This document shows positions 553 through 47,340 of a DNA stretch of 47,340 bases, piece by piece (position 1 is the stretch's first letter; every line of letters starts with the position of its first letter). The position numbers and the translations under genes are program-made. The notes beneath the pieces were generated by a model, which was not told where the DNA came from, did not search any database, and saw only the letters and a list, made by a program, of their open reading frames with translations. This DNA is from Phycisphaerae bacterium (GTDB lineage: Bacteria > Planctomycetota > Phycisphaerae > Tepidisphaerales > Tepidisphaeraceae). The stretch spans positions 1 to 47,340 of the forward strand of contig JAICTV010000013.1 in assembly GCA_025936175.1 (NCBI GenBank). Reading direction: 5' to 3'.

Positions 553-2799
553 CTATCGCGGCTTGTACATGAGAATTCGCATCGCGTTCAGCACCACGAC
601 GACGGTCGAGCCTTCGTGGAACAGCACCGCGACGCCGAGGTAGGTGTATCCCAGCGCCGCCAGCGGCGCGAGCACCGCGATCACGCCCAGGGCGATCACC
701 AGGTTCTGCTCGATGATCCGCCGGCTGTAGCGCGAGAGGCCGATCGCGTCGGGCAGCTTGGCGAGATCGTCGGCCATGAGCGCGACGTCGGCGGTTTCGA
801 TGGCGACGTCCGTTCCCGCGCCGCCCATCGCGATGCCCACCGTCGCCGTCGCCAGCGCGGGCGCATCGTTCACCCCGTCGCCCACCATCGCCACGCCGCC
901 GTATTTCGTTTCGAGCAGCTTGACCAGCTCGAGTTTGTTCTCCGGCAGCAGCTCGGCGTGATGCTCGTCGATGCCGATCTGAGCGGCGATCGCCGCGGCG
1001 ACGGGAGCCTTATCGCCCGTGAGCATGATCGTCCGACGGATGCCCATGCGATGCAGCCGCTGAATCGTCTCGCCCGCGTTGAGCCGCGGCGTGTCGGACA
1101 ATCCGATCACGCCGATCGGACGATCGTCGATGCCGACGACGACGGTGCTCTTTCCCTCATGTGCGAGCCGGCCGATCGTGTCGGTCAGCAGTGCGGCATC
1201 ACCGTTGAGGGCCGTAAACATCTCGGCGCGCCCGACGGAGATAACATGCCCGCCGACCGTCGCGCGCACGCCTTGTCCGGCGGCCTGCTGAGCATCAATC
1301 GCGTCGGCGATTCCGTAACCGTGCGATCGCGCCTCACCGACGATCGCGACGGCAAGCGGGTGCGTCGACCCCTTCTCCACCGCCGCCGCAAGGGAGAGTA
1401 TCCTCTCCGCGGTCATAAAGGGGTCACTTCCCATTTTGTCCGCGGTCATAAAGGGAAGTGACCCCTTTTTGACCGCAGCCGGGAGTGAATCGAGCGGCAG
1501 CACGTCCGTCACCGTCGGCCGGCCCTGCGTGAGCGTGCCGGTCTTGTCGAAGCAGACCACCCGCACGCGGCCGAGGTTCTCGAGGTGCACGCCGCCCTTC
1601 ACCAGCACGCCGATCTTCGCCGCCCGCGCGATGCCGCTGAGAACCGCCGCCGGCGTTCCGATCGCCAGTGCGCACGGCGACGCCGCCGTGAGGAACGCCA
1701 TCGCACGATAAAACCACGTCCCCCAGAATCCGCCGTGCGCGAGCGGCGGGACAAAGATGAGCAGCGCGGTGCCGACCAGCACGACCGGGACGTACCACTT
1801 CTCGACGCGATCGGTGAACACCTGCGTCGGCGATTTGGTAGCCTGCGCTTCCTGGACCAACGTAACGATCCTGGCGAGTGTGCTCTCGGCGGCGAGCTTG
1901 GTCGTCTTCACGGTCAACAACCCTTCGCCGTTGATCGTGCCCGCGAAGACAGCCGAGCCGATGACTTTCTCGACCGGCGCAGACTCGCCGGTGATCGGAG
2001 ACTGATCGATCGCGGAGGCCCCGCTCACGACGACGCCGTCGCAGGGCAGCCGATCGAAGGGCCGGACGACGACGTTGTCGCCGATCGCGAGATCCTCGAT
2101 GCGAACAAGCCGCTCCTTGCCGTCAGCGTCACGTCGCGTCGCCGTGTCCGGCGCAAGCCTTGCCAGCGCCTCGATCGCCTTGCGCGCCCGGTCCATCGCC
2201 AACTCTTCACCCGCCCCGCCGAGCGCGAACAGGACCAGCAGCAGCGTCCCTTCCTCGTAGTGTCCCAGCGCCGCCGCGCCGAACGCGGCGGCGAACATCA
2301 GCACGTCGATGTCGAACTTGAACTCGCGCAACACATGGAGCGTGTCGATCGCGGTGTACCATCCGGCGATGATGAAGCCGGCAAAGACCGACGCGAGCCG
2401 CAGCCACGGCGGCCCGTCGACCGCCCGCGTGATGGTCGCGACCATCAGCAGGAGCGCGCCGACCAACGCCATCGCCAGCTTGTGATGCGTCAGGATCAGC
2501 TCGCGCAGCCGCTCGATCGACTTGCGATCCTTCGGCGGCTCCGCCTGGCGCGGGCCGCCTTCGCGCAGATGAAAGCCCAGCTCGTCTAATCTCCGGGCGA
2601 TTTCCGGGAGGGCGCAGCGCGAGCGATCGAATTCGACGCTGAGGGATGCCGCGGCGAAGCTGGCGCGGGCGGTGACGCCGGGCAGCCTGGCCAGAACCGA
2701 CTCGACCAGCCGCTCGCTGCGCTGCGACACCATTCCTTCGACGCCCAGCACGACGCGGGCGCGATTTTCGTTCGGGCTGAAGGTCGTCGCTGTGGTCAT
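553..2799 (-). CDS. P1B-type heavy-metal transporting ATPase (SPC type)
   Basis: This 748-residue inner-membrane ATPase should export a divalent transition metal. In order there is a degenerate HMA-like domain (about residues 10-75; the GMxCxxC metal site reads GMVSQRS, so its cysteines are gone), paired N-terminal membrane helices, the actuator TGES, the membrane motif SPCALAIGTPAA, the phosphorylation site DKTGTLT (Asp near 418), the nucleotide-domain HP motif STHPLA, GDGVNDAPAL, and a last helix with HEGST. SPC together with HEG(G/S)T is the signature of the P1B-4 subgroup, linked to Co, Zn or Fe export, rather than the CPC Cu/Zn/Cd groups. Residues about 442-464, between the phosphorylation site and the HP motif, are encoded by a palindromic repeat inserted in frame. 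It is divergent from the thioredoxin gene. Substrate is inferred; the family is secure. Confidence 0.93.
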   Translation of the reverse strand: MTTATTFSPNENRARVVLGVEGMVSQRSERLVESVLARLPGVTARASFAAASLSVEFDRSRCALPEIARRLDELGFHLREGGPRQAEPPKDRKSIERLRELILTHHKLAMALVGALLLMVATITRAVDGPPWLRLASVFAGFIIAGWYTAIDTLHVLREFKFDIDVLMFAAAFGAAALGHYEEGTLLLVLFALGGAGEELAMDRARKAIEALARLAPDTATRRDADGKERLVRIEDLAIGDNVVVRPFDRLPCDGVVVSGASAIDQSPITGESAPVEKVIGSAVFAGTINGEGLLTVKTTKLAAESTLARIVTLVQEAQATKSPTQVFTDRVEKWYVPVVLVGTALLIFVPPLAHGGFWGTWFYRAMAFLTAASPCALAIGTPAAVLSGIARAAKIGVLVKGGVHLENLGRVRVVCFDKTGTLTQGRPTVTDVLPLDSLPAAVKKGSLPFMTADKMGSDPFMTAERILSLAAAVEKGSTHPLAVAIVGEARSHGYGIADAIDAQQAAGQGVRATVGGHVISVGRAEMFTALNGDAALLTDTIGRLAHEGKSTVVVGIDDRPIGVIGLSDTPRLNAGETIQRLHRMGIRRTIMLTGDKAPVAAAIAAQIGIDEHHAELLPENKLELVKLLETKYGGVAMVGDGVNDAPALATATVGIAMGGAGTDVAIETADVALMADDLAKLPDAIGLSRYSRRIIEQNLVIALGVIAVLAPLAALGYTYLGVAVLFHEGSTVVVVLNAMRILMYKPR
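1409..1476. repeat. Palindromic REP-like element inside the ATPase gene
   Basis: Positions 1409-1432 and 1453-1476 form a 24-bp inverted repeat with one mismatch (core aaaggggtcacttccc), separated by 20 bp. The left arm's outer part, ccgcggtcataaagg, is also repeated directly at about 1439-1453. Read on the minus strand it stays in frame and encodes AVKKGSLPFMTADKMGSDPF and a few more residues, with FMTA occurring twice. The KGS(D/L)PFMTA peptide is one I recall as common in planctomycete open frames, which fits a dispersed element rather than conserved protein sequence. Confidence 0.85.
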
Positions 2800-2854: not shown

Positions 2855-3373
2855 GTGACCGAATCTCAGCCCAAACCTCCGCAGTCCAGCGCGTTCCGCC
2901 CGCTGATCGTGATCTTCCTGCTTTTCGCGGGCGTCGCGGGAGTTACGGCGTTTTCAAGATGGCACGTGGCGCCGGAACTGGTGGACTGGTCCGACAGCTT
3001 CAGCGTCGCGCGCGAAAGAGCGCGGACGGAACACAAGCCAATCCTGCTTTACTTCACCGCGAGCTGGTGCGGCCCGTGCCAGGAGATGCGGCGAAGCGTC
3101 TGGACCGACCAACGCATCGCCGATGCGCTGTCGGCGTACGTCACCGTCCGCATTGACATCGACAAGCAAGGCGATCTGGCGCGGCAGTATCACACCGAAT
3201 CGATCCCGCAGTTCTTCCTGATGGATGAAGACGGGAACATCCAGCGCAGCGAGACCGGCGCGATGGACGCGGATCAATTCCTGGCGTGGCTCGCGAAGGC
3301 GACCGCGTCTTCGCCCCCGCTTCACTCCGAGATCGAACTCGCCCGCTCTGCCGCCACGGGTTCGTCGACGTGA
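2855..3373 (+). CDS. Membrane-anchored thioredoxin-like protein
   Basis: The 172-residue protein begins with a short cytoplasmic stretch, one membrane helix (about residues 15-35) and then a thioredoxin fold with the active site WCGPC and the cis-Pro region SIPQFFLMDEDG. The fold faces the periplasm if the helix is a signal anchor. It probably reduces or rearranges disulfides, or acts like DsbD-gamma/thioredoxin_7 proteins that accept a C-terminal cargo. I chose GTG at 2855 because the frame upstream would run through the divergent ATPase coding region and encodes arginine-rich, non-protein-like sequence. Its last 52 bp overlap the convergent methyltransferase gene. Family confident; partner unknown. 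Confidence 0.85.
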   Translation: MTESQPKPPQSSAFRPLIVIFLLFAGVAGVTAFSRWHVAPELVDWSDSFSVARERARTEHKPILLYFTASWCGPCQEMRRSVWTDQRIADALSAYVTVRIDIDKQGDLARQYHTESIPQFFLMDEDGNIQRSETGAMDADQFLAWLAKATASSPPLHSEIELARSAATGSST

Positions 3374-4104
3374 AGCAGCCCGATGCCCGCCCACTGCTGG
3401 TCCGCGGTTTCCAGCAGTTCTTCGCACCGCCATTTCGCCTTCAGCTCGTTCCAGAACGGCCGAACCTTGTTGAGCGGGTCGACCTGCCGCGGCGCGATGT
3501 CGTGGAAGGCGATCAGCCCGCCGCTGCGGACGAGCGGGCCGTACATCGCAAAGTCCCGCTTGATGCCGTCGTAGGTGTGGTCGCCGTCGAGCAGAAGGAA
3601 GTCGATCGGTTCGCCGCCGAGTGAGCGTTTCACCGCCTCCAGCGACCGCTGCTCGTGCGAGTCGTCCTGCAGCAGTTCAATGGACTGCCCGTCGACGGCG
3701 AAGGCCTGGTACATCGGCCGCTTCCACAAGGGATACCCGCCGCCGAACTCCCCGCCGGGCAGGTCAAGGCTGAGCAATTTCGCGTCGGGAGCGGCAACGC
3801 GCGTGAAGAGGAACAGGGTGCCGCCGTTGGCCGTGCCGATCTCCATCACCCGCCGCGGCCGCAGCGCCTGCACGCGCGCCAGCAGCTCGCGGATCTCCGA
3901 GCGGACCTGAATCGGGCGGATGATGCGATGGCAGGTGTTGAAGGAGAAGTCGAGCAGAGCGTCGAGGTCGGCGAAGGTGGGCTTGCGCGCCAGCTTGCGT
4001 TTGGCGCAGAGGGTACCCAGCGTGTGCTGCATCGCCTTGCGTGCCGCCCCGCCGACGCCTTGCGAGCGCAGCAGGTTCATCGCCTTCTTAATGGTGACCG
4101 ACAC
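3322..4104 (-). CDS. Class I SAM-dependent methyltransferase (Methyltransf_24/CmcI-like)
   Basis: The 260-residue protein has a Rossmann methyltransferase core: motif I is VMEIGTANGGTLFLF (about residue 90), the acidic loop is LSLDLPGG, and a later strand is IDFLLLDGDHTYDGIKRDF, followed by GGLIAFHDI. The D-G-D-H-T-Y-D pattern with the following HD is typical of the CmcI/rhamnosyl O-methyltransferase and Methyltransf_24 groups, which often modify sugars or small molecules. It is the last gene of the nuoD-to-nuoF operon, 10 bp after nuoF, and its 3' end overlaps the thioredoxin gene by 52 bp on the other strand. The acceptor cannot be told from sequence; a glycan is plausible given the FkbM gene in the same operon. 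Confidence 0.8.
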   Translation of the reverse strand: MSVTIKKAMNLLRSQGVGGAARKAMQHTLGTLCAKRKLARKPTFADLDALLDFSFNTCHRIIRPIQVRSEIRELLARVQALRPRRVMEIGTANGGTLFLFTRVAAPDAKLLSLDLPGGEFGGGYPLWKRPMYQAFAVDGQSIELLQDDSHEQRSLEAVKRSLGGEPIDFLLLDGDHTYDGIKRDFAMYGPLVRSGGLIAFHDIAPRQVDPLNKVRPFWNELKAKWRCEELLETADQQWAGIGLLHVDEPVAAERASSISE

Positions 4105-4114
4105 GCCAAGCCCC

Positions 4115-5467
4115 CTAGCGGGTGTTGCTGCCCATCGGCGTGAGCACGTTCAGACTGCCGCGCTTGATCGTCAGCGGGACCGTCTCAATCGGCGCCTCGG
4201 GGCAGCGCGCCGCGAACTCCTCGTAGAACTTGTTGATGAACGTCCGCGTCGCCCACGCCGTACCGTCCGCCAGGCCGCAGATCGTCGTGCCGGGCATGAT
4301 GCCCATCGTCTTTTCCAGTTCGAGGAGCATCTCCAGGTCTTTGGCGCGCCCGCCGCCGTCCACGATGCGGTCGAGGATCTTGCGCATCCAAGCGCTTCCT
4401 TCGCGGCAGGGCGTGCACTGGCCGCAGCTCTCGTGGGCGTAGAAGCGGACGCAGTTGCGCAGCGCGGCGACCATGTCTGTGTGCTCGTTCATGACGATCA
4501 TGCCCGCGGTGCCGAGTCCGAGGCAGCCGCCGCGGAAACGCACGTCGTCGAAATCGAGCTTGATGTCGAGCTGCGTCGGACCGAGCACGCCCATCGAGAT
4601 CCCGCCGCAGATCGCCGCCTTGTATTTGCCGCCCTTCATCCCGCCGGCCATGTCGATCGACTGTTGCAGCGTGATGCCGAGTTCGTTCTCGTACACGCCG
4701 GGCTTGTTGAGGTGTCCGCTCATGCCGAAAAGTTTCGGACCCGGCGACGAGGGCGTGCCCATCGTCTTAAACCACGCGGGGCCTTTCTCGATGATCGGCG
4801 GGACGAGGCAGAGCGTCTCGACGTTGTTGATGACCGTCGGCCGCGCGAACGCCCCCGCGATCGCCGGGAACGGCGGCTTATTGCGCGGCCAGCCGCGCTT
4901 GCCTTCGAGCGATTCGAGCAGTCCCGTCTCTTCGCCGCAGATGTAAGCACCGGCGCCGCGATGCACGTAGCACTCGAGCTTGCACTGCGAGCCGAAGATC
5001 CCCTGCTGGCCGAAGACTTTGTTGTCGTACGCTTCCTTGATCGCGTTCTCGAGCGCCTTCGCCTGGCGGTGGTATTCGCCGCGGATGTAGATGTAGGCGA
5101 CGTCGCACTGCGTCGCGATGGAGGCAATGGCGATGCCTTCGAGCAGCGAGTGCGGGTCGTAGTCCATCAGATAACGGTCTTTGAACGTCCCCGGCTCCGA
5201 TTCGTCGGCGTTCACCGCGAGATAGTGCGGCCCCTTCTTTTCCTTCGGAATGAACGACCACTTCTGTCCCGCCGAGAATCCCGCTCCGCCGCGGCCGCGC
5301 AGGCCCGAGTCGATCACCGTCTTGATGATCTCGTCCGCCTTCATGTCCAGCACCTTGCGCAGCGACGCGTAGCCGCCGGTCTTGGCGTAGTCGTCGTAGC
5401 CGACGAGCTTGCGTTGGCTGGGATCGAGGGGAATGCGCTTGGTGAGGACGGGTTCGTTAAACGCCAT
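4115..5467 (-). CDS. nuoF: NADH-quinone oxidoreductase subunit F
   Basis: NuoF carries the FMN and the first 4Fe-4S cluster of the NADH-dehydrogenase arm of complex I and takes hydride from NADH. The 450-residue product has the NADH glycine loop GRGGAGFSAGQKW (about residue 70), the FMN segment NADESEPGTFKDR, GAYICGEETGLLESLEG, and the C-terminal cluster ligands ESCGQCTPCREG followed by the distal Cys in TTICGLADG. I chose ATG at 5467 because the product then begins MAFNEPVLTKRIPL, like family members; the frame is open a further 17 codons upstream. It is separated from nuoE by four other genes in the same operon, 76 bp after the FkbM gene. No nuoG follows. Confidence 0.97.
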   Translation of the reverse strand: MAFNEPVLTKRIPLDPSQRKLVGYDDYAKTGGYASLRKVLDMKADEIIKTVIDSGLRGRGGAGFSAGQKWSFIPKEKKGPHYLAVNADESEPGTFKDRYLMDYDPHSLLEGIAIASIATQCDVAYIYIRGEYHRQAKALENAIKEAYDNKVFGQQGIFGSQCKLECYVHRGAGAYICGEETGLLESLEGKRGWPRNKPPFPAIAGAFARPTVINNVETLCLVPPIIEKGPAWFKTMGTPSSPGPKLFGMSGHLNKPGVYENELGITLQQSIDMAGGMKGGKYKAAICGGISMGVLGPTQLDIKLDFDDVRFRGGCLGLGTAGMIVMNEHTDMVAALRNCVRFYAHESCGQCTPCREGSAWMRKILDRIVDGGGRAKDLEMLLELEKTMGIMPGTTICGLADGTAWATRTFINKFYEEFAARCPEAPIETVPLTIKRGSLNVLTPMGSNTR

Positions 5468-5543
5468 GGCGAGGGAAATAGTAGCGAGATCGAAAAGGCG
5501 GGCAACCTGTCCAATCAATGGCCGGGCTTGCCGTGCCGACGAT

Positions 5544-6338
5544 TTACCGCTTGCGCCGGCCGTTGATGATGCAGCCTTGGGCGTCGTCCTGCTTCATTAC
5601 GACGTCGAAGCCTTCGTTGCGCACCAGGTTGATGAAGTCGTCGCGCTGCCGCCCGGCCGGCGCGTGGACTTCCATGGCCACCTGCTGCGCCATTGCCAGC
5701 AGTTTGCTCCCCGGCCTGAACAGTTCGAACTCGCTCCCCTCAATGTCGCACTTGATCAGGTTGATCTTCGACAGGTTGAAGCGACGGATGAACTCGTCTT
5801 CCGAAAGGTACTCGTTCTGAATGCCGCTCTCGGTGGCGACCATGTCGCGCTGGAACTGCGTTTCGCCGCCGATGAAGGCGCTGCAGATATCGCAGCGATT
5901 TTCCCACCCGTCGTTGATCTCGAGCAGGTGGCGGATGCGTTCGCAGTCGCTGACCCGCGGTTCAACGCAGACGCAGCGCGTGTCGGGATGCATGCCCAGC
6001 GCCAGCGCGGTAAAGAAGCCGCGGTTCGCCCCGAGATCGAGGACGACGCCGGCGGGCGCGATCTCGATGTATCCCCCGTTCGTGTAGACGTCGCGGACCC
6101 AGACTTCGCGGATCGAGGAGATCGCGTACGGATCCTCGATCTTCGCCCGCGCGCCGCGAAGCTTCGGGTAGAAAGGGCCGCTTCCCATCCCCCGATCCGC
6201 GGACTGGAGGGTGCGCGTCCTGATGCACGTTCGCGCGTGCAACGCGATCTGCATCAGCCAACGCAGCGCCACTCCGACCCCGCACACACGCGCCAGCCCG
6301 AGGAAATCGCGAACCACCGTTCGAAAGATCCGACCCAT
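5544..6338 (-). CDS. FkbM-family methyltransferase
   Basis: This 264-residue protein has the FkbM O-methyltransferase core: GVVLDLGANRGFFTALAL (SAM motif I, about residue 95), VCVEPRVSDCERIRHLL, and the diagnostic LIKCDIEGSEFELF with the IEG.E signature near residue 200. FkbM-like enzymes methylate hydroxyl groups on sugars, polyketides or surface glycans. The N-terminal 80 residues contain a short hydrophobic stretch (LGLARVCGVGVALRWLMQIAL) and may bind the membrane. It sits in the nuoDEF operon, 37 bp after the small gene at 6376-6588 and 76 bp before nuoF. Nothing suggests a role in complex I; co-transcription with envelope modification genes is more likely. Confidence 0.88.
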   Translation of the reverse strand: MGRIFRTVVRDFLGLARVCGVGVALRWLMQIALHARTCIRTRTLQSADRGMGSGPFYPKLRGARAKIEDPYAISSIREVWVRDVYTNGGYIEIAPAGVVLDLGANRGFFTALALGMHPDTRCVCVEPRVSDCERIRHLLEINDGWENRCDICSAFIGGETQFQRDMVATESGIQNEYLSEDEFIRRFNLSKINLIKCDIEGSEFELFRPGSKLLAMAQQVAMEVHAPAGRQRDDFINLVRNEGFDVVMKQDDAQGCIINGRRKR

Positions 6339-6375
6339 TCAATTCTGTTCCGATGGCACGACGCGCTGAAACGAC

Positions 6376-6588
6376 TTAATTCGGTAATCGTTTGCCGTCG
6401 TCGCGGACGACTTCATCGATGATTGTCCGTCGCAGTTTCTCCTCCGGCCGGTCAGGGAGCGTCGCTTCCTGAACGGTCGTTTTTTTGTACACGATCTTAG
6501 GCTGCGCCACATCCTTGCCGGCGGCGCCTTTGACGTAGCCGATCTGGCGTCCGAGCCATCCGAAGAGACTCTTCGACTTCTTTGCCAT
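6376..6588 (-). CDS. Small conserved-looking protein of unknown function (70 aa)
   Basis: A 70-residue basic protein starting MAKKSKSLFGWLGRQIGYVK, with an amphipathic N-terminal half and a charged C-terminal half ending RRTIIDEVVRDDGKRLPN. No catalytic motif or membrane segment is visible. It lies 4 bp after the 92-residue gene and 37 bp before the FkbM gene, so it is very likely translated as part of the nuo operon. I do not recognise the family. The tight spacing and ordinary amino-acid composition support a real gene. Confidence 0.6.
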   Translation of the reverse strand: MAKKSKSLFGWLGRQIGYVKGAAGKDVAQPKIVYKKTTVQEATLPDRPEEKLRRTIIDEVVRDDGKRLPN

Positions 6589-6592
6589 CGCT

Positions 6593-6871
6593 TCAGTCGA
6601 CCGTCACGTCGAACTCGCGTTTCGCCTGGTGAATCGCGTCTTCGCGCGTTCCGTGCCACGAATCTCCGATGAATCCGCCGGAGGCGTCGAAGCGATGAAG
6701 CACCCACGCGCCCGACATCCCCGGCTCGAGGACGAGCCGGCTCACCAATCCTCCCGCGGCCGGCTTGAGTCCGACACCCCGCGGCGCGCCCAGGTTCATC
6801 GCCGCGTGCGGCAGGCAATCGTTGCTCGCCGGCATGGGCTTGGGAAGATTGACGACGATCTTCGACATCAT
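6593..6871 (-). CDS. Small protein of unknown function (92 aa)
   Basis: A 92-residue soluble protein. The C-terminal half, WVLHRFDASGGFIGDSWHG followed by TREDAIHQAKREFDV, looks like a compact alpha/beta module in which a beta-hairpin is followed by a helix, as in small proteins that decorate larger enzymes. The N-terminus is rich in proline and small residues (LPKPMPASNDCLPHAAMNLG). Its start overlaps the stop of the phosphatase-like gene by 4 bp (ATGA), indicating translational coupling. I do not recognise a family and assign no function. Confidence 0.6.
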   Translation of the reverse strand: MMSKIVVNLPKPMPASNDCLPHAAMNLGAPRGVGLKPAAGGLVSRLVLEPGMSGAWVLHRFDASGGFIGDSWHGTREDAIHQAKREFDVTVD

Positions 6872-7512
6872 TCCTGTCCGACCGGTAATCCCTCGGGCAC
6901 CGCACCAGTCACCGGATCATAGACTTCGATAAACCGCTTCACATCCCCCACCGTCCGCTGGCTGTGCCCGAACGTCAGCATCTGCTCGATGCACTTTTCC
7001 TTCGCCCATCCGAGCACGCTCCGCTGATACGCCGCTACCATCATGCCCGTCCGACGGACGCCTTGAGCGCAATGCACGAGAATCGGCTGGTTCTGCTTGC
7101 CTGCCACCACGGACAGGAAGTGGCGGACATCCTCAGAACTCGGCCACCCGCCCAGCTTCACCGGGATTCGCTCGATTTTCACGCCGTTGCGCGCGCACCA
7201 CTCGACTTCCGCCGCGAGCTCCGGCTTACGCGTGTCCGCCAGCTCGGTGTCATCAATCAGGCAGACGACCGTCTTGATCTTGCCGCACTGAATCGCGTGG
7301 CTGAACTCCCGCACGCCCCGATTGCCGGATCGATAGAGCACGCCTGGATCGACGACGGCGAAGTGATAGGTCTGCCACTTTGCCCACCAAAGTGCGCCGC
7401 CTGCGAGCACGACCGCGACGATTGCTAACGCGATCGGCAGCACGAGACGACGAGCCTTAGTGGCCACCTTCGTCCCAGGTAATCGTCGGGTCTTTGTAAT
7501 CAGCCGGATCAT
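6868..7512 (-). CDS. Membrane-anchored dual-specificity/tyrosine phosphatase-like protein
   Basis: The 214-residue protein has one N-terminal membrane helix (LVLPIALAIVAVVLAGGALWW, about residues 24-44) and then a phosphatase fold whose P-loop reads HCAQGVRRTG, a complete CX5R signature with the catalytic Cys and Arg. Upstream, LYRSGNRG and VVCLIDD match the start of bacterial DSP/tyrosine phosphatase-like domains. It should hydrolyse phospho-tyrosine, phospho-serine/threonine or a phospho-lipid/sugar on the outer side of the membrane. The ATG at 7512 overlaps nuoE by 56 bp; a GTG at 7467 would reduce that to 11 bp and still keep the helix. It is between nuoE and nuoF in one operon. Confidence 0.82.
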   Translation of the reverse strand: MIRLITKTRRLPGTKVATKARRLVLPIALAIVAVVLAGGALWWAKWQTYHFAVVDPGVLYRSGNRGVREFSHAIQCGKIKTVVCLIDDTELADTRKPELAAEVEWCARNGVKIERIPVKLGGWPSSEDVRHFLSVVAGKQNQPILVHCAQGVRRTGMMVAAYQRSVLGWAKEKCIEQMLTFGHSQRTVGDVKRFIEVYDPVTGAVPEGLPVGQE

Positions 7513-8032
7513 CCGGCAGCTTGTTCAGCACATCAGCGAGCTTCTCCGGCGTGAGGTTCTCGTGCAGCACTTCGTTCACCAGCGCCACCGGCGCGGTGCC
7601 GCAGGAGCCGAGACATTCCAACTCGACGAGCGTAAACCGCCCGTCCGCCGTCGTCTCGCCGACCTCGATCCCCAGTTTCTCCTCGACCTCCCGGGTGAGC
7701 TGCTTCGACGCGCAGATCTCGCACGAGAGCGACCGGCAGACCTGGATGAGATACTTCCCCTTGGGCTTGAGCCAGTACTCCTCGTAGAACGTCGCCGTAT
7801 CCATCACCTCGGCCGGCGAGATCTCGAGGAACTCGGCAACTTCTTCCAGCGCCGCGATGGGAATCCAGTTGTAGGTGTGCTGGATGGCGTGCAACGTCGG
7901 CAGGAGACAGGCGCGCTTGGTCGGATAGCGCGGAAAATACCTCTTCGCGATGTCGATCTTCAGATCGTCGGTCAGGTACTTTGTGCCCTTCTCGACGACG
8001 GCGTTTCGGCGATCTTCAGCAATCCAAGCCAT
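7457..8032 (-). CDS. nuoE: NADH-quinone oxidoreductase subunit E
   Basis: NuoE holds the off-path 2Fe-2S cluster N1a and packs against NuoF in the NADH arm of complex I. The 191-residue product has the helical N-terminal half with RYPTKRACLLPTLHAIQH and then the thioredoxin-like half with ligands in CRSLSCE (C-x4-C) and ECLGSCGTAP (C-x3-C). It follows nuoD by 107 bp, and its 3' end overlaps the phosphatase gene. NuoF, its direct partner, comes four genes later. Family identity is secure. Confidence 0.96.
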   Translation of the reverse strand: MAWIAEDRRNAVVEKGTKYLTDDLKIDIAKRYFPRYPTKRACLLPTLHAIQHTYNWIPIAALEEVAEFLEISPAEVMDTATFYEEYWLKPKGKYLIQVCRSLSCEICASKQLTREVEEKLGIEVGETTADGRFTLVELECLGSCGTAPVALVNEVLHENLTPEKLADVLNKLPDDPADYKDPTITWDEGGH

Positions 8033-8139
8033 TTTTGCCCCAGCAATCGTTCCGCTTCAGCCGTTTCTGCGCCGCACATTCTGCGATTCGGCCAATTCTG
8101 CGGCGCAAACAACGCCGCTTCGGCGGCCATCGGCGCGAT

Positions 8140-9417
8140 TTATCGATCCAGTTCCGCCGCGATGACGTTGATTGATCCCAAAATTGCCGGCACGTCGCTG
8201 ACCATGTGCCCTTCGATCATCTTCGGGAACGACTGATAATTGATGAAGCTGCACGGCCGCGTGCGGACGCGCCACGGCACGTTTTCGCCGGCGGAGACGA
8301 TGTAGTAGCCCAATTCGCCGTTGCCGGATTCGATGCAGAAGTAGACTTCGCCCTTGGGGGCCTCGAAGCCCCGGTTCGTCATGATCAGCTCGAAGTGCTG
8401 AATCAACCCTTCGATGCTCGAATAGACCTGGTCCTTCGGCGGCAGGACGTCCTTGCCTTCGGGCGAGACGTTCACCGGCCCGGCGGGGATGTTGTCGATG
8501 AGCTGGCGGATGATGTGCAGGCTTTGCCGCATCTCCTCCAGGCGGACGAGGTAGCGCGCGTACACGTCGCCGGTGGTCATGATCGGCACTTTGAAGTTCA
8601 CTGCCGCCGTGCCCTGGCCGTCCCAGTTGTCGGCGAAGCAGAGGTACGGCTCGTCCTTGCGAATGTCGCGCTTCACGCCGGAGGCGCGGGCCATCGGGCC
8701 CGATAAGCTCCAGGCGATCGCCTCTTCTCGGGTCATCACGCCGACGCCTTTGGTGCGATCAATGAAGATCTGGTTCTTGCTCAGCAGCTTCTCGACATCC
8801 TCGACCGCCTGGGGCATCGCGTCGTCGATGAACGTCTTGACCATCCGCCTGAAGACCACCTCGTCCGGCAGATCCATGTTCAACCCGCCGACACGGGTCC
8901 AGCTCGTATGAAATCGCTGGCCGGACATGTACTCGACGATGTCGTAGATCTTTTCGCGCTCGTTGAAGCCGTAGAGGAAGGCGGTGAACGCGCCCAGGTC
9001 CAGACCCGCCGCCGCGACGCAGAGCAGGTGCGATTGGATGCGACCCAACTCGCCGGCGATCGTCCGCAGCACTTTGCAGCGCGGCGTGAGCTCAATCCCC
9101 ATCAGCTTCTCCGTCGCCCCATGCCACGCCAGCTCGTTGTAGATCGGGGCGGAATAGTCCATCCGATCGACGATCGTCACGTACTGGTTGTAGTTGAGGG
9201 CTTCGCCGAGCTTTTCGAACCCCGAGTGCAGATACCCGATGTGCGGCGTGCACTTGATGATGCGTTCGCCGTCGAGCTCGAGCACCAGCCGCAGCGTCGT
9301 GTGCGTCGCCGGGTGCTGCGGGCCGAAATTGAGCGTCCAGCGGTTCGACGCATCGCCCGCATACGGGTCACCGTCCGGCTGCAGTTGCGGAGAAGCGTCT
9401 TCCAGCGTGTAGGGCAT
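8140..9417 (-). CDS. nuoD: NADH-quinone oxidoreductase subunit D
   Basis: NuoD is the 49-kDa hydrogenase-like subunit that lines the quinone site of complex I. The 425-residue product shows NFGPQHPATHTTLRLVLELDGE at the start (the His-Pro-x-x-His quinone-site loop), PHIGYLHSGFEKLGE, DRMDYSAPIYNE, GVGVMTREEAI, and ends with DVPAILGSINVIAAELDR. I chose ATG at 9417 because homologues begin shortly before the RWTLNFGPQHP segment; the frame upstream to 9489 is arginine-rich. It is the first gene of the operon. The usual neighbours nuoA, B and C are not upstream, where a dead PEP-CTERM gene lies instead. Confidence 0.97.
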   Translation of the reverse strand: MPYTLEDASPQLQPDGDPYAGDASNRWTLNFGPQHPATHTTLRLVLELDGERIIKCTPHIGYLHSGFEKLGEALNYNQYVTIVDRMDYSAPIYNELAWHGATEKLMGIELTPRCKVLRTIAGELGRIQSHLLCVAAAGLDLGAFTAFLYGFNEREKIYDIVEYMSGQRFHTSWTRVGGLNMDLPDEVVFRRMVKTFIDDAMPQAVEDVEKLLSKNQIFIDRTKGVGVMTREEAIAWSLSGPMARASGVKRDIRKDEPYLCFADNWDGQGTAAVNFKVPIMTTGDVYARYLVRLEEMRQSLHIIRQLIDNIPAGPVNVSPEGKDVLPPKDQVYSSIEGLIQHFELIMTNRGFEAPKGEVYFCIESGNGELGYYIVSAGENVPWRVRTRPCSFINYQSFPKMIEGHMVSDVPAILGSINVIAAELDR

Positions 9418-9563
9418 AAGCGGCGCGGGATTATAGCGACGACGGGACTTCGTGCCATCCTTCACAATTTCCCGAGCCGGATCGATCACCTGATCCTGCG
9501 ACCGCCCTACCGATCGGCGGCCACTCCTCTACAGCCACCCGGGAGGACCGCGATTATCCTGAC

Positions 9564-11518: not shown

Positions 11519-13105
11519 TTATCCCTGGTGACATGAGGAGCGATGATACCGCCGACGCCGCAGCAGCGCGGCGCCGCCGCCGCACAGAAGGAACAGCAAC
11601 GCCCCCGGCTCGGGCACCGAGGTGGCCGCCAGCGCGGGCGCCGGTGTCGCGGACGGCGACGTCGTCGTGAAGCTGACCTTCAACGTCGGCCGCAGCGAGA
11701 CGTTCGAAAACTCATCCGACTGCCAGCGCCACGCGTCGGTGCCGCCGGTGTTGGCGGTGATGACCCAGCCGAAATCGCTCGACCCGTTCGCCCACGCCTG
11801 CACGCTTTTGGTGACGTCGAAGGTGACGAGCTTCCCCGGCGTCCCGGGTGTGAGGGTCGCGTCTGCGGCGCTGAGGCTCTCGATGCCGTCGGTGCTGATG
11901 CCGCTGCTCAGGCTGTTCCAGGTGGACGATTCGCTGAAGCCTTTGAGCAGGCGGTGGATGCCGAAGGAGCCCTTGCTGCCGTCGACCGAGCCGCTCGAGG
12001 TTTGCAGCGTAAGCTGTGCCGAAGTGATCTTTGCGCCGTGCGGGATCTGCGATGAGCCGCTGCCGACGAGGGAGTCGAAGCGGACGAGCGCTTCGGATTT
12101 GGGCGACTGCCCGGCGACGATCGGCGTGGCGCTGCCGTGTGTTGACGCGGCGCCCGATGAGCTCACATACGTGTCGTGCCCGCCGGCGTAATTGCTCGAG
12201 CCTTTGCGGAAGGTGAGGGTTTTCGTGATCGTCGGCGTGGTCGTGGTCGTGTTCCAGATGTTGGCGATATCGCTCGCGCCGCCCGCCGCGCCCGCGCGCG
12301 AGACGCCGTACATGTCGCTGATCGTCCTCAGCAGATCGAACTGACCATAACGCGTCGAGCTGCTCGCGCCGCTCTTGACCACCTGCCCGCTCACGATCGT
12401 CGCGACGCGATTGTCTTCGCCGTAATCGTCCTCGTCCCACGTGACCACGAGCATGCTGTTGTGCGACCTGGCCCAGGTGTTGTACGCGCCCAGGTGGCTC
12501 GACAACCACGAATCGCCGGCGGAGATCGAGCCGTCGTGCATGTTGTTCGCGTTGTTGGGCACGACGAAAGAGACGGTCGGCAGCTTCGAATAGTCCGTCG
12601 GGAAGCTGCTCATCGACATGTTGACGCTCGAGGGAAGCTGATTGCCGCTCGGGTTGGAGCTCTGCCAGTTCACCCACGGGTTGTGCTTGCGCGCGTAGTT
12701 GCCGGAGGTCTCGCCGGTCCACCCGGTCGAGGGAAGCGATTCGGAATAGCCGCCGAAGCTTAAGCCTTTGGCCCGCAGCGCCGCCGCGAGATTCGGCGTC
12801 GCAAAGGGCACGTTGCCGGGCATGTCGTCGTCGCTCACCCCCTGATCGGAGCCGCTGAACAGGTTCAGGTAGTTCGGCTGGCTGGGGTGCGACAGCGCGT
12901 AGAAGTCGGTCAGCGCCGCCCCGCTCCTGGCGAGTGAATTGATGAAGCCGGCGCTGGAGCTTGCAAAGATCTCGTCGGCCCCGCGATTCTCTTCGACGAC
13001 GACAACGACGTGATCCGGCCTGGGAAGCGCCGCGCGGGCCGCGCCCGCATGCAGCATCAGGAACGTAAGGACGACCGCGCAGGCAACGAATGCGCGAAAC
13101 GGCAT
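11519..13105 (-). CDS. PEP-CTERM phosphoesterase with DNRLRE-like C-terminal module
   Basis: The 528-residue exported protein has a signal peptide (about residues 1-25), then a phosphoesterase/acid-phosphatase domain of the alkaline phosphatase superfamily: HVVVVVEENRGADEIF (metal-site start), ALSHPSQPNYLNLFSGSDQG, and VVTWDEDDYGEDNRVATIV with metal-ligand acids. A second beta-rich module (about 290-480) with ITSAQLTLQT and VTKSVQAWANGSSDFGWVI resembles DNRLRE/disaggregatase-related carbohydrate or matrix binding domains. The end, SVPEPGALLFLLCGGGAALLRRRR, is a PEP-CTERM signal for exosortase-dependent anchoring. It probably releases phosphate from phosphomonoesters or phospholipids outside the cell. 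It is followed by the glycosidase, 35 bp later. Confidence 0.88.
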   Translation of the reverse strand: MPFRAFVACAVVLTFLMLHAGAARAALPRPDHVVVVVEENRGADEIFASSSAGFINSLARSGAALTDFYALSHPSQPNYLNLFSGSDQGVSDDDMPGNVPFATPNLAAALRAKGLSFGGYSESLPSTGWTGETSGNYARKHNPWVNWQSSNPSGNQLPSSVNMSMSSFPTDYSKLPTVSFVVPNNANNMHDGSISAGDSWLSSHLGAYNTWARSHNSMLVVTWDEDDYGEDNRVATIVSGQVVKSGASSSTRYGQFDLLRTISDMYGVSRAGAAGGASDIANIWNTTTTTPTITKTLTFRKGSSNYAGGHDTYVSSSGAASTHGSATPIVAGQSPKSEALVRFDSLVGSGSSQIPHGAKITSAQLTLQTSSGSVDGSKGSFGIHRLLKGFSESSTWNSLSSGISTDGIESLSAADATLTPGTPGKLVTFDVTKSVQAWANGSSDFGWVITANTGGTDAWRWQSDEFSNVSLRPTLKVSFTTTSPSATPAPALAATSVPEPGALLFLLCGGGAALLRRRRYHRSSCHQG

Positions 13106-37479: not shown

Positions 37480-37516
37480 CAACAGCATTTTCTCTGTGCT
37501 CGCGCGGCGGAGAATT

Positions 37517-46131: not shown

Positions 46132-47340
46132 TCAGTCGATGTCATCCCGAGGTACTCCGAGGGATCTCGGACGCAACTGGCCTTCGAGATCCCTCGGAGA
46201 ATCTCGGGATGACAATGCTCGCTGCGCATCGGTTATCGGTATGCCGAGCGAAGCGGAGGGTCGCGTTGACGGCTGCGTCGCCGCCGGCGCGGTGGTCGCT
46301 TTCATCGTCGCGGCGGCGGCGTGGCGGGCCCTGCGCTTCTTCGCCGCGGCGCGCTTGGCGGCTTCCTGGCTCTTCTGACGCTTCAGCTTCTCCGCCTTTG
46401 CGTGGGTCCTGGCCTTGCGCTCGGCGGCGACGTGTTTCGTCGCGGCGACGTGCTTCTTCTTCCGCGCGATCTGCGTCGTGCTCGGGCGCGTCGCGCCGCC
46501 GGCGGTCGTCTTGGCGGTCATGCGCGTGGTCGCGACCGGCGTCTTGCGCCAATCCTGCGTTCCGGGCGGCACCTTGATATCGACCTTCGCCAGCACCATG
46601 TCGCCGACCTTGGCGACGCGCTCGGTCGGGACGATCACGCCGCGGTCCATCAGCTCGCGGATCTCGCGCTCGCCTTTGCCGTAGAGGTTGGACGGGAAGA
46701 CGGCGTAGTGGATGTTCAATGCCGCCAGGTGCGTCGGCCAATGCACGGGCGATTTGTTCGTCGGGATGATGTCCTTCTGCATCACCACTTCACGGCCGCT
46801 GGTATAGCTCATGATCGTCGCGCCGGGCGCGATGACCTTCTCGCCGGGCGGGACGAGCGTGCGCACCGCCTCGCTCATGTCGAGCACGTACTTCCACTTG
46901 GGCCCTTCCTCGGCGGAGCGGTTCCAGCCGCGCTGCTCGCCGATCACCTTGCAGCAGCGGGCGAAGTTGGGACAGACCACCGCGAGGATGCCCAGGATCA
47001 GCGTCAGCTCGGCCCATTTCGGCGGAACGTTTTGCGCGACGACGACGGTGAGCAAAACCCAGCTCAACATCATGATCGGCAGGACCATGACGTAGTAGCG
47101 CGGGACCGCCGTCATCACCAGCGTCACCGCGACGGTCAGATACACCAGCAGCGGCCAGAGCCAGTTGCGGCGGAGCAGCACCAGCGGCGCGAGCAGCGCG
47201 ATGACATTCATCAACTGCGTCATCCCGGGCAGCCACTTTTCGCCGAAGAACGAGTACGCCAGCTCGGAGTTGATCATCTCCGGCAGCGTTTTCTGCACGT
47301 TGGCGGCGACGTTGCGGAGTGCGGCGATGGCGTCGCGCTC
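46132..47340 (-). CDS. Partial GT39-like membrane protein with a basic C-terminal tail (5' end outside window)
   Basis: The frame is open to the window edge, so the N-terminus is missing. The visible 402 residues have membrane segments (LMNVIALLAPLVLLRRNWLW, LVYLTVAVTLVMTAVPRYYVM, LPIMMLSWVLLTVVVAQN) and an extracytoplasmic domain with VIAPGATIMSYTSGREVVMQ and FPSNLYGKGEREIRELMDRG, the layout of GT39-like transferases. After residue about 265 comes a long Lys/Arg/Ala-rich tail (IARKKKHVAATKHVAAERKA and AAKRAAAKKRRARHAAAATM), unlike the family. The last 26 or so residues (SSRDSPRDLEGQLRPRSLGV...) and the stop region are encoded by a family A palindromic repeat, so the natural C-terminus may have been different. 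Confidence 0.72.
   Translation of the reverse strand, partial: ERDAIAALRNVAANVQKTLPEMINSELAYSFFGEKWLPGMTQLMNVIALLAPLVLLRRNWLWPLLVYLTVAVTLVMTAVPRYYVMVLPIMMLSWVLLTVVVAQNVPPKWAELTLILGILAVVCPNFARCCKVIGEQRGWNRSAEEGPKWKYVLDMSEAVRTLVPPGEKVIAPGATIMSYTSGREVVMQKDIIPTNKSPVHWPTHLAALNIHYAVFPSNLYGKGEREIRELMDRGVIVPTERVAKVGDMVLAKVDIKVPPGTQDWRKTPVATTRMTAKTTAGGATRPSTTQIARKKKHVAATKHVAAERKARTHAKAEKLKRQKSQEAAKRAAAKKRRARHAAAATMKATTAPAATQPSTRPSASLGIPITDAQRALSSRDSPRDLEGQLRPRSLGVPRDDID
46140..46214. repeat. Dispersed palindromic repeat, family A (copy inside the glycosyltransferase C-terminus)
   Basis: Left arm tgtcatcccgaggtactccg (with agggatctcg after it) and right arm ending gagatccctcggagaatctcgggatgaca; the arms pair nearly throughout. 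It is intact, and the minus-strand frame reads through it, giving the last residues of the glycosyltransferase, which stops 5 bp beyond the element. Confidence 0.88.

Follow-up and report, generated by a model that had tools for sequence, protein, structure and literature searches.

The contig analysed here, a 47,340-nucleotide stretch that we call the window (JAICTV010000013.1, assembly GCA_025936175.1, from a Phycisphaerae bacterium), carries the complex I genes nuoD, nuoE and nuoF on one strand. Four other genes lie between nuoE and nuoF: a phosphatase-like gene (PTP), two genes for small proteins of 92 and 70 amino acids (s92 and s70), and a gene for an FkbM-family methyltransferase. A gene for a second methyltransferase, MT24, follows nuoF. 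The NADH-oxidising tip of complex I includes NuoE and NuoF. Sequence comparison indicates that the insert is composed of three age layers (private, family-level and class-level genes) instead of a single insertion, and that the deeply conserved gene is the smallest, s70, a point missed in the first-pass annotation of this DNA. On balance, and with modest confidence, we read s70 as a lineage-specific gene whose product is an accessory of the NuoE/NuoF module or helps to assemble it, and as older than the family-level PTP and s92 and the passengers FkbM and MT24.

Our first s70 profile, which contained 14 proteins from the window's family and one from another family (genome G046), matched 24 of 392 genomes of the phylum, all of them within the window's class. 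Because the profile holds only those proteins, 22 of the 24 matches are independent of it. The neighbour of s70 is nuoE in 18 of the 23 loci found outside the window, and in the other five, all from family f4, none of the window's genes falls within 1.5 kb of s70. With a wider profile of 34 sequences (the window's protein and 33 of the 45 copies in our named loci, and therefore built partly from loci that are counted here), s70 was found in 47 of 198 class genomes, and nuoD in 120 of the same 198 (E <= 1e-60). Every one of the 47 genomes with s70 has nuoD, and s70 is found in none of the 78 genomes that lack it (Fisher p 6.5e-13, with genomes treated as unrelated). Most of the compared genomes are incomplete.

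The gene also keeps its place. In 40 of the 47 genomes, from six families, s70 is part of the nuoD/E/F cluster: 38 copies are found either behind nuoE or in the nuoD-nuoF interval and two are about 1.5 kb upstream of nuoF, while the remaining seven of the 47 lie away. Within the window's family, s70 is present in 18 of 26 genomes, and 16 of the 18 have it in the nuoE locus, behind nuoE either directly or after PTP or s92. Outside the family 24 of 29 copies are in the cluster (22 of them behind nuoE or in the nuoD-nuoF interval, two about 1.5 kb ahead of nuoF). Of 80 named nuoE loci, 18 have s70 no more than 300 bp behind nuoE, 26 have it at a greater distance downstream on the same strand (PTP or s92 intervening in most of the family loci) and one has it elsewhere in the locus. 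It was not found in the other 35, some of which end early at contig ends, and a search by eye for a hidden copy in six loci without s70 (L107, L108, L110, L112, L127 and L150) revealed none. At L038 and L045, nuoE, PTP and s70 are kept together although no nuoF follows in the stretch read, while at L203 and L205 s70 lies between nuoD and nuoF with no nuoE detected. Because s70 sits between nuoE and nuoF, stays with nuoE even without a downstream nuoF, and is absent without nuoD, we suggest that it is functionally tied to complex I. Search listings from an open-access library included no work dealing with these genes in Phycisphaerae.

In the window, the eight genes run from 9417 to 3322 on the minus strand, in the following order of transcription:

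8140..9417, minus strand: nuoD, 49 kDa-type complex I subunit; ATG at 9417 in the open frame 8140-9489; NF004739 450.5 bits against a cut-off of 360, Pfam Complex1_49kDa E 1.7e-102
7457..8032, minus strand: nuoE, [2Fe-2S] subunit; TIGR01958 154.2 bits against a cut-off of 142.4
6868..~7467, minus strand: PTP, N-terminal hydrophobic (membrane) segment and DSP/PTP-type domain; PF22741 E 3.3e-16, 59.5 bits against a gathering score of 27, and PF03162 E 6.5e-12, 45.8 bits against a gathering score of 27
6593..6871, minus strand: s92, 92-amino-acid small protein; in 7 of 22 family loci
6376..6588, minus strand: s70, 70-amino-acid small protein; found in 47 of the 198 class genomes; window protein without a Pfam family
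5544..6338, minus strand: FkbM-family methyltransferase; TIGR01444 48 bits against a cut-off of 37.7
4115..5467, minus strand: nuoF, NADH/FMN (flavin mononucleotide)-binding subunit; NF010120 477.4 bits against a cut-off of 389
3322..4104, minus strand: MT24, Methyltransf_24/CmcI-like methyltransferase; PF13578 48.6 bits against a cut-off of 26.3

NuoD, NuoE and NuoF each exceed at least one curated NCBIfam cut-off; in the same scan TIGR01959 (525.2/558.65) and TIGR01962 (454.4/459.35) fell short of theirs. The start of nuoF was chosen from relatives whose NuoF begins MAFTEPVLTKRI or similar. The window is one contig of an incomplete 5.5-Mb genome, in which nuoE alone matches PF01257 at E <= 0.001. 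The open frames and family matches bear out the first-pass description of nuoD, nuoE and nuoF in order, with extra genes packed between nuoE and nuoF on one strand. Its statement that nuoA-C and nuoG are not adjacent also stands, as queries with E. coli NuoA, NuoB, NuoCD and NuoG-N uncovered no nuo gene in the window besides nuoD, nuoE and nuoF.

PTP starts at a GTG that overlaps the nuoE stop (overlap about 11 bp), PTP and s92 overlap by 4 bp, and the remaining gaps are 4 bp (s92-s70), 37 bp (s70-FkbM), 76 bp (FkbM-nuoF) and 10 bp (nuoF-MT24). The range of 4-76 bp first given for gaps or overlaps thus describes all of the spacings except the 107 bp between nuoD and nuoE, the only one above it. 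Because the genes are so tightly packed, it is likely that all eight share a single transcript. A scan for promoters and terminators performed at chance level against shuffled sequence (six terminators, 5.7 expected; one promoter, 1.0 expected): its sole promoter-like site lies before nuoD (9458-9430), its sole minus-strand terminator-like sites are weak and lie in the nuoD/nuoE gap (8127-8113), and it placed no site of either kind in the nuoE-nuoF interval.

We compared the window's proteins, directly and then by iterated profiles, with 34 nuoE loci of relatives, 21 from the same family and 13 from other families of the class. The first-pass annotation had asked whether the intervening genes are always found next to nuoE, and the answer splits the set. 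Counting the window, s70 is behind nuoE in 16 of 22 family loci, PTP after it in 13 and s92 behind it in 7. FkbM and MT24 had no match in any of the 34 other loci and so are present only in the window among the 35. An insertion private to one strain, raised earlier as a possible refutation, therefore describes FkbM and MT24 and does not describe PTP, s92 or s70. FkbM and MT24 are best read as private, recent passengers at the locus.

The class consensus of s70 includes LRRTTIEEVE, and six columns, counting the start Met, are invariant over the 34 sequences; the conserved residues include G13 and RRT/E59. Its predicted model consists of a helix (8-24) and a beta-hairpin with strands at 31-43 and 51-63, with a mean predicted local distance difference test score (pLDDT) of 76.8, a block of pLDDT 83-91 across residues 31-60, and a predicted template-modelling score (pTM) of 0.36. 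Searches of Pfam and NCBIfam for known accessory or assembly proteins gave only scattered weak matches of single members of the 34 to unrelated families (best E 0.034). The best PDB sequence match had E 0.41, and the model matched no PDB fold at E <= 0.001. For one within-genus pair, the nonsynonymous (dN) and synonymous (dS) rates were 0.217 and 0.73 for s70 (dN/dS ~0.30), 0.073 and 0.50 for s92 (~0.15), and 0.068 and 0.46 for PTP (~0.15); in that pair dN is below dS for all three, as expected of maintained proteins.

We also asked how s70 relates to the history of the nuo cluster. In five deep-branching loci of the class, each from a different family, the nuo operon is still nearly complete, from nuoA or nuoB to nuoM in the stretch read, and s70 is absent. 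In the named set of 80 loci, just one nuoI and one nuoA were detected nearby with E. coli queries (NuoCD rows were left out, and nuoC is not covered), from which we conclude that the operon is dispersed around nuoE there. We had considered a strict tie between s70 and this break-up, which had to be loosened: two f3 loci (L062 and L063) are dispersed around nuoE without s70, and L057 (nuoD-E-F-G) and L056 (nuoD-E-F) likewise lack it. In a midpoint-rooted NuoE tree of 52 rows, in which carriers are over-represented because loci picked for carrying s70 were included, seven rows without s70 are split off by a branch of support 100/98. The presence of s70 requires five changes on this tree, compared to a mean of 11.8 with shuffled labels (0 of 500 as low). 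Its distribution fits a single gain followed by several losses.

PTP is predicted, by profile and by its HCX5R motif (HCAQGVRR in the window protein), to be a DSP/PTP-type cysteine phosphatase. Against PDB sequences its profile matched 2m3v best (E 2.7e-10), followed by 4r0s, TpbA (E 6.3e-10). Full-length copies number 15, spread over 14 of the 26 family genomes: 13 of them follow nuoE, another directly precedes nuoF (G008), and the last is elsewhere (G004). Of the 13 that follow nuoE, 12 retain an intact CX5R. The exception belongs to G008, which has two copies: L047:10232-10831, behind nuoE and without CX5R, and L187:3212-3757, directly before nuoF on another contig, with HCREGVRR. The arrangement looks as though a cluster had split and each end had retained a copy. 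PTP was seen in the position following nuoE in no family but the window's; the named loci of other families gave no PTP match between nuoE and nuoF. By eye, Lys/Arg precede the membrane segment in 9 of 11 alignment rows (the L036 row has none before it and two after). By the positive-inside rule this places the catalytic domain outside the cytoplasm, and PTP is thus probably exported. A distant, second PTP-type gene lies directly behind nuoA in G013 (L045:4901-6084; a single-contig genome of 7.19 Mb). We rejected this as a general pattern, since it occurs only in G013 and relatives in nine other stretches adjoin no nuo gene. At L114, a second-type PTP gene is located about 9 kb upstream of nuoE.

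The other family-level gene, s92, is found in 8 of the 26 family genomes: seven full-length copies, all in the nuoE-nuoF interval, and one weak partial match elsewhere. Outside the family, 294 phylum genomes yielded only weak partial matches, in 5 of them, most covering the C-terminal half and none beside the window's nuo queries; the position following nuoE was seen for s92, as for PTP, only in the window's family. Over the seven sequences 35 positions are invariant, including C19, H22 and H73, with the motifs DCLPHAAMNLG and GGFxxDxxHG. The predicted model is b-a-bbb-a (mean pLDDT 72.2, with residues 20-37 below 50) and matched no PDB fold at E <= 0.001. Its three strands and helix prompted us to consider NDUFS4, which received no profile support: PF04800 is absent among the weak Pfam matches of the seven members (PqqD E 0.013, VID27 E 0.15), and it has no match in the window's genome, while a Caulobacter control was positive. 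Structurally, the complex I or supercomplex chains 9buh_J, 8ba0_Q and 9ihq_Q (the latter two of which we take to be NDUFS4) reach Z 3.1-3.2, level with many unrelated rows, and the best row of the search (Z 4.9) consists of other small proteins. PTP and s92 appear to be family-level additions with a weaker link to complex I than s70.

Taken together, we propose that one large clade of the class has in s70 an old complex I accessory gene. The small product of s70, probably cytoplasmic, would most likely bind the NuoE/NuoF part (the N-module) and help to assemble or stabilise it, and the helix and beta-hairpin could dock on the surface of NuoE or NuoF. PTP and s92 would have joined the interval in the window's family and are probably made with NuoE and NuoF, with no contact required, and FkbM and MT24 would have arrived recently. 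The comparisons show the order of the genes, their conservation and linkage, the co-occurrence of s70 with nuoD and, in one pair, dN below dS; the shared transcript, the binding and the role in assembly or stability are our inference.

Several observations weigh against this proposal. Gene linkage does not amount to binding, and with a pTM of 0.36 and no PDB fold match the docking is a guess. No s70 match was found in 73 of the 120 nuoD-bearing class genomes, most of them in families where none was found at all. Family f5 has 19 genomes with nuoD and no s70, and its NuoE (one row, on a long branch) falls inside the s70 clade; G060, G236 and G407 lack s70 in f18, otherwise an s70-carrying family. 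In the window's own family, G008, G009, G011, G015 and G024 have a high-scoring nuoD and no s70 match, as do the less complete G002 and G022, where nuoD is distant or fragmentary. For seven of the 47 copies, the surrounding 14-18 kb that were read contain no nuo gene; in four of these, from genus g25 (L196, L197, L199 and L201), s70 adjoins what is presumably a pfkB-like sugar kinase gene. On the NuoE tree the s70 label also has to change five times, and 0 of 200 bootstrap trees need only one change. Finally, the interval takes unrelated genes as well, as with FkbM in the window and the HicB/HicA-like pair described below.

A less probable alternative, which we nonetheless take seriously, is that s70 acts in assembly or maturation (loading NuoE and NuoF with FMN or iron-sulphur clusters, for instance) and leaves the finished enzyme instead of being a subunit of it. 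The linkage data would look the same, and the evidence presented here is alike for a subunit and a factor. Scattered genes might need help with assembly, and other nuo genes are indeed seldom near in the named loci, s70 carriers included, while the five loci with a near-complete operon have no s70. On the other hand, the dispersed f3 loci indicate that dispersal does not require s70, and the Pfam, NCBIfam and PDB sequence searches found no similarity to a known assembly factor.

We consider it unlikely that the extra genes are all passengers in a tolerant site after nuoE, in a well-expressed operon, with functions unrelated to complex I. At L112:10600-11168 the nuoE-nuoF gap is filled by two genes that, judging from their translations, we take to be a HicB/HicA-like toxin-antitoxin pair, and PTP, s92 and s70 were not found there. 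That such a pair occupies the same gap shows the gap to be open to passengers. The restriction of FkbM and MT24 to the window and the many nuoD-bearing genomes without s70 point the same way, as does the nuoA-linked gene of G013, whose relatives in nine other stretches adjoin no nuo gene. This explanation suits FkbM and MT24; it does not suit s70, which is clustered in most of its genomes, across six families, and occurs only with nuoD.

That PTP is a dedicated regulator dephosphorylating NuoE, NuoF or another complex I subunit seems very improbable: most copies keep CX5R and follow nuoE, and a mycobacterial signalling protein acting on complex I offers a precedent (PMC9274095), but a probably exported enzyme makes direct action on cytoplasmic NuoE and NuoF doubtful, the G008 copy behind nuoE has lost its active site, and in the named loci of other families the nuoE-nuoF interval contains no PTP match.

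Returning to s70 as an accessory protein of the NuoE/NuoF module, a bolder picture can be drawn, which we offer tentatively and would not expect to hold in full. The clade's complex I may have its own extra subunit, s70, at the NuoE/NuoF tip, gained while the ancestral nuo operon was dismantled, with s92 (possibly of NDUFS4-like fold) and an exported phosphatase added in the window's family. Supernumerary parts would then have grown here independently of the mitochondrial line.

Elsewhere in the window, a heavy-metal P-type ATPase gene (553-2799, minus strand) contains a 34-nt inverted repeat at 1409-1476, without spacer and 88% complementary, that reads in frame as KKGSLPFMTADKMGSDPFMTAE and looks like an inserted short palindromic element. 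Four 31-nt repeats, at 46140-46214 with related copies at 37514, 40294 and 44065, perhaps represent an interspersed palindromic element; one lies within a 35-nt inverted repeat with GTCATCCCGAGGTACTCCGAGGGATC. The protein encoded at 11519-13105 (minus strand) ends in the tail VPEPGALLFLLCGGGAALLRRRR, which we take to be PEP-CTERM-like.

The best-known supernumerary complex I subunits are those of mitochondria and, among bacteria, of Paracoccus (PMC11522691). For one gained independently, s70 offers a concrete candidate: it is small and unannotated, tied to nuoE and nuoF in six families of one planctomycete class, and found only with nuoD. It opens the question of whether the break-up of the nuo operon and the gain of accessory genes are connected, and should s70 turn out to do no more than help assembly, annotation would still gain a new family to be named.

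Among known systems, one close to PTP is TpbA, the exported tyrosine phosphatase of Pseudomonas aeruginosa (PDB 4r0s), which is similar in length; PTP differs in being located in a nuo cluster. The mycobacterial response regulator Rv3143 is reported to interact with NuoD and is proposed to modulate Nuo (PMC9274095). It is a precedent for a complex I regulator, but it is not a phosphatase, and its interaction was tested, whereas PTP is known from genes alone. In Paracoccus denitrificans, purified complex I contains supernumerary NDUFS4, NDUFS6 and NDUFA12 and the methyltransferase PIMT, so that an S-adenosylmethionine-dependent methyltransferase has become a subunit there (PMC11522691). Like our reading of s70, these alphaproteobacterial subunits are lineage-limited extras on a bacterial complex I. 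They were seen in the enzyme, however, whereas s70 and s92 are known from genes and match none of them in Pfam scans; FkbM and MT24 match methyltransferase families other than PIMT, and the window's genome has no PF04800 match. An analogy for s70 comes from mammals, where NDUFV1 and NDUFV2 are the counterparts of NuoF and NuoE. There, NDUFV3, of about 8-10 kDa, adjoins NDUFV1 and NDUFV2 (PMC5293009). A PDB sequence search found no relation between NDUFV3 and s70, making this an analogy only, but the position of NDUFV3 is the very place that gene order leads us to propose for s70.

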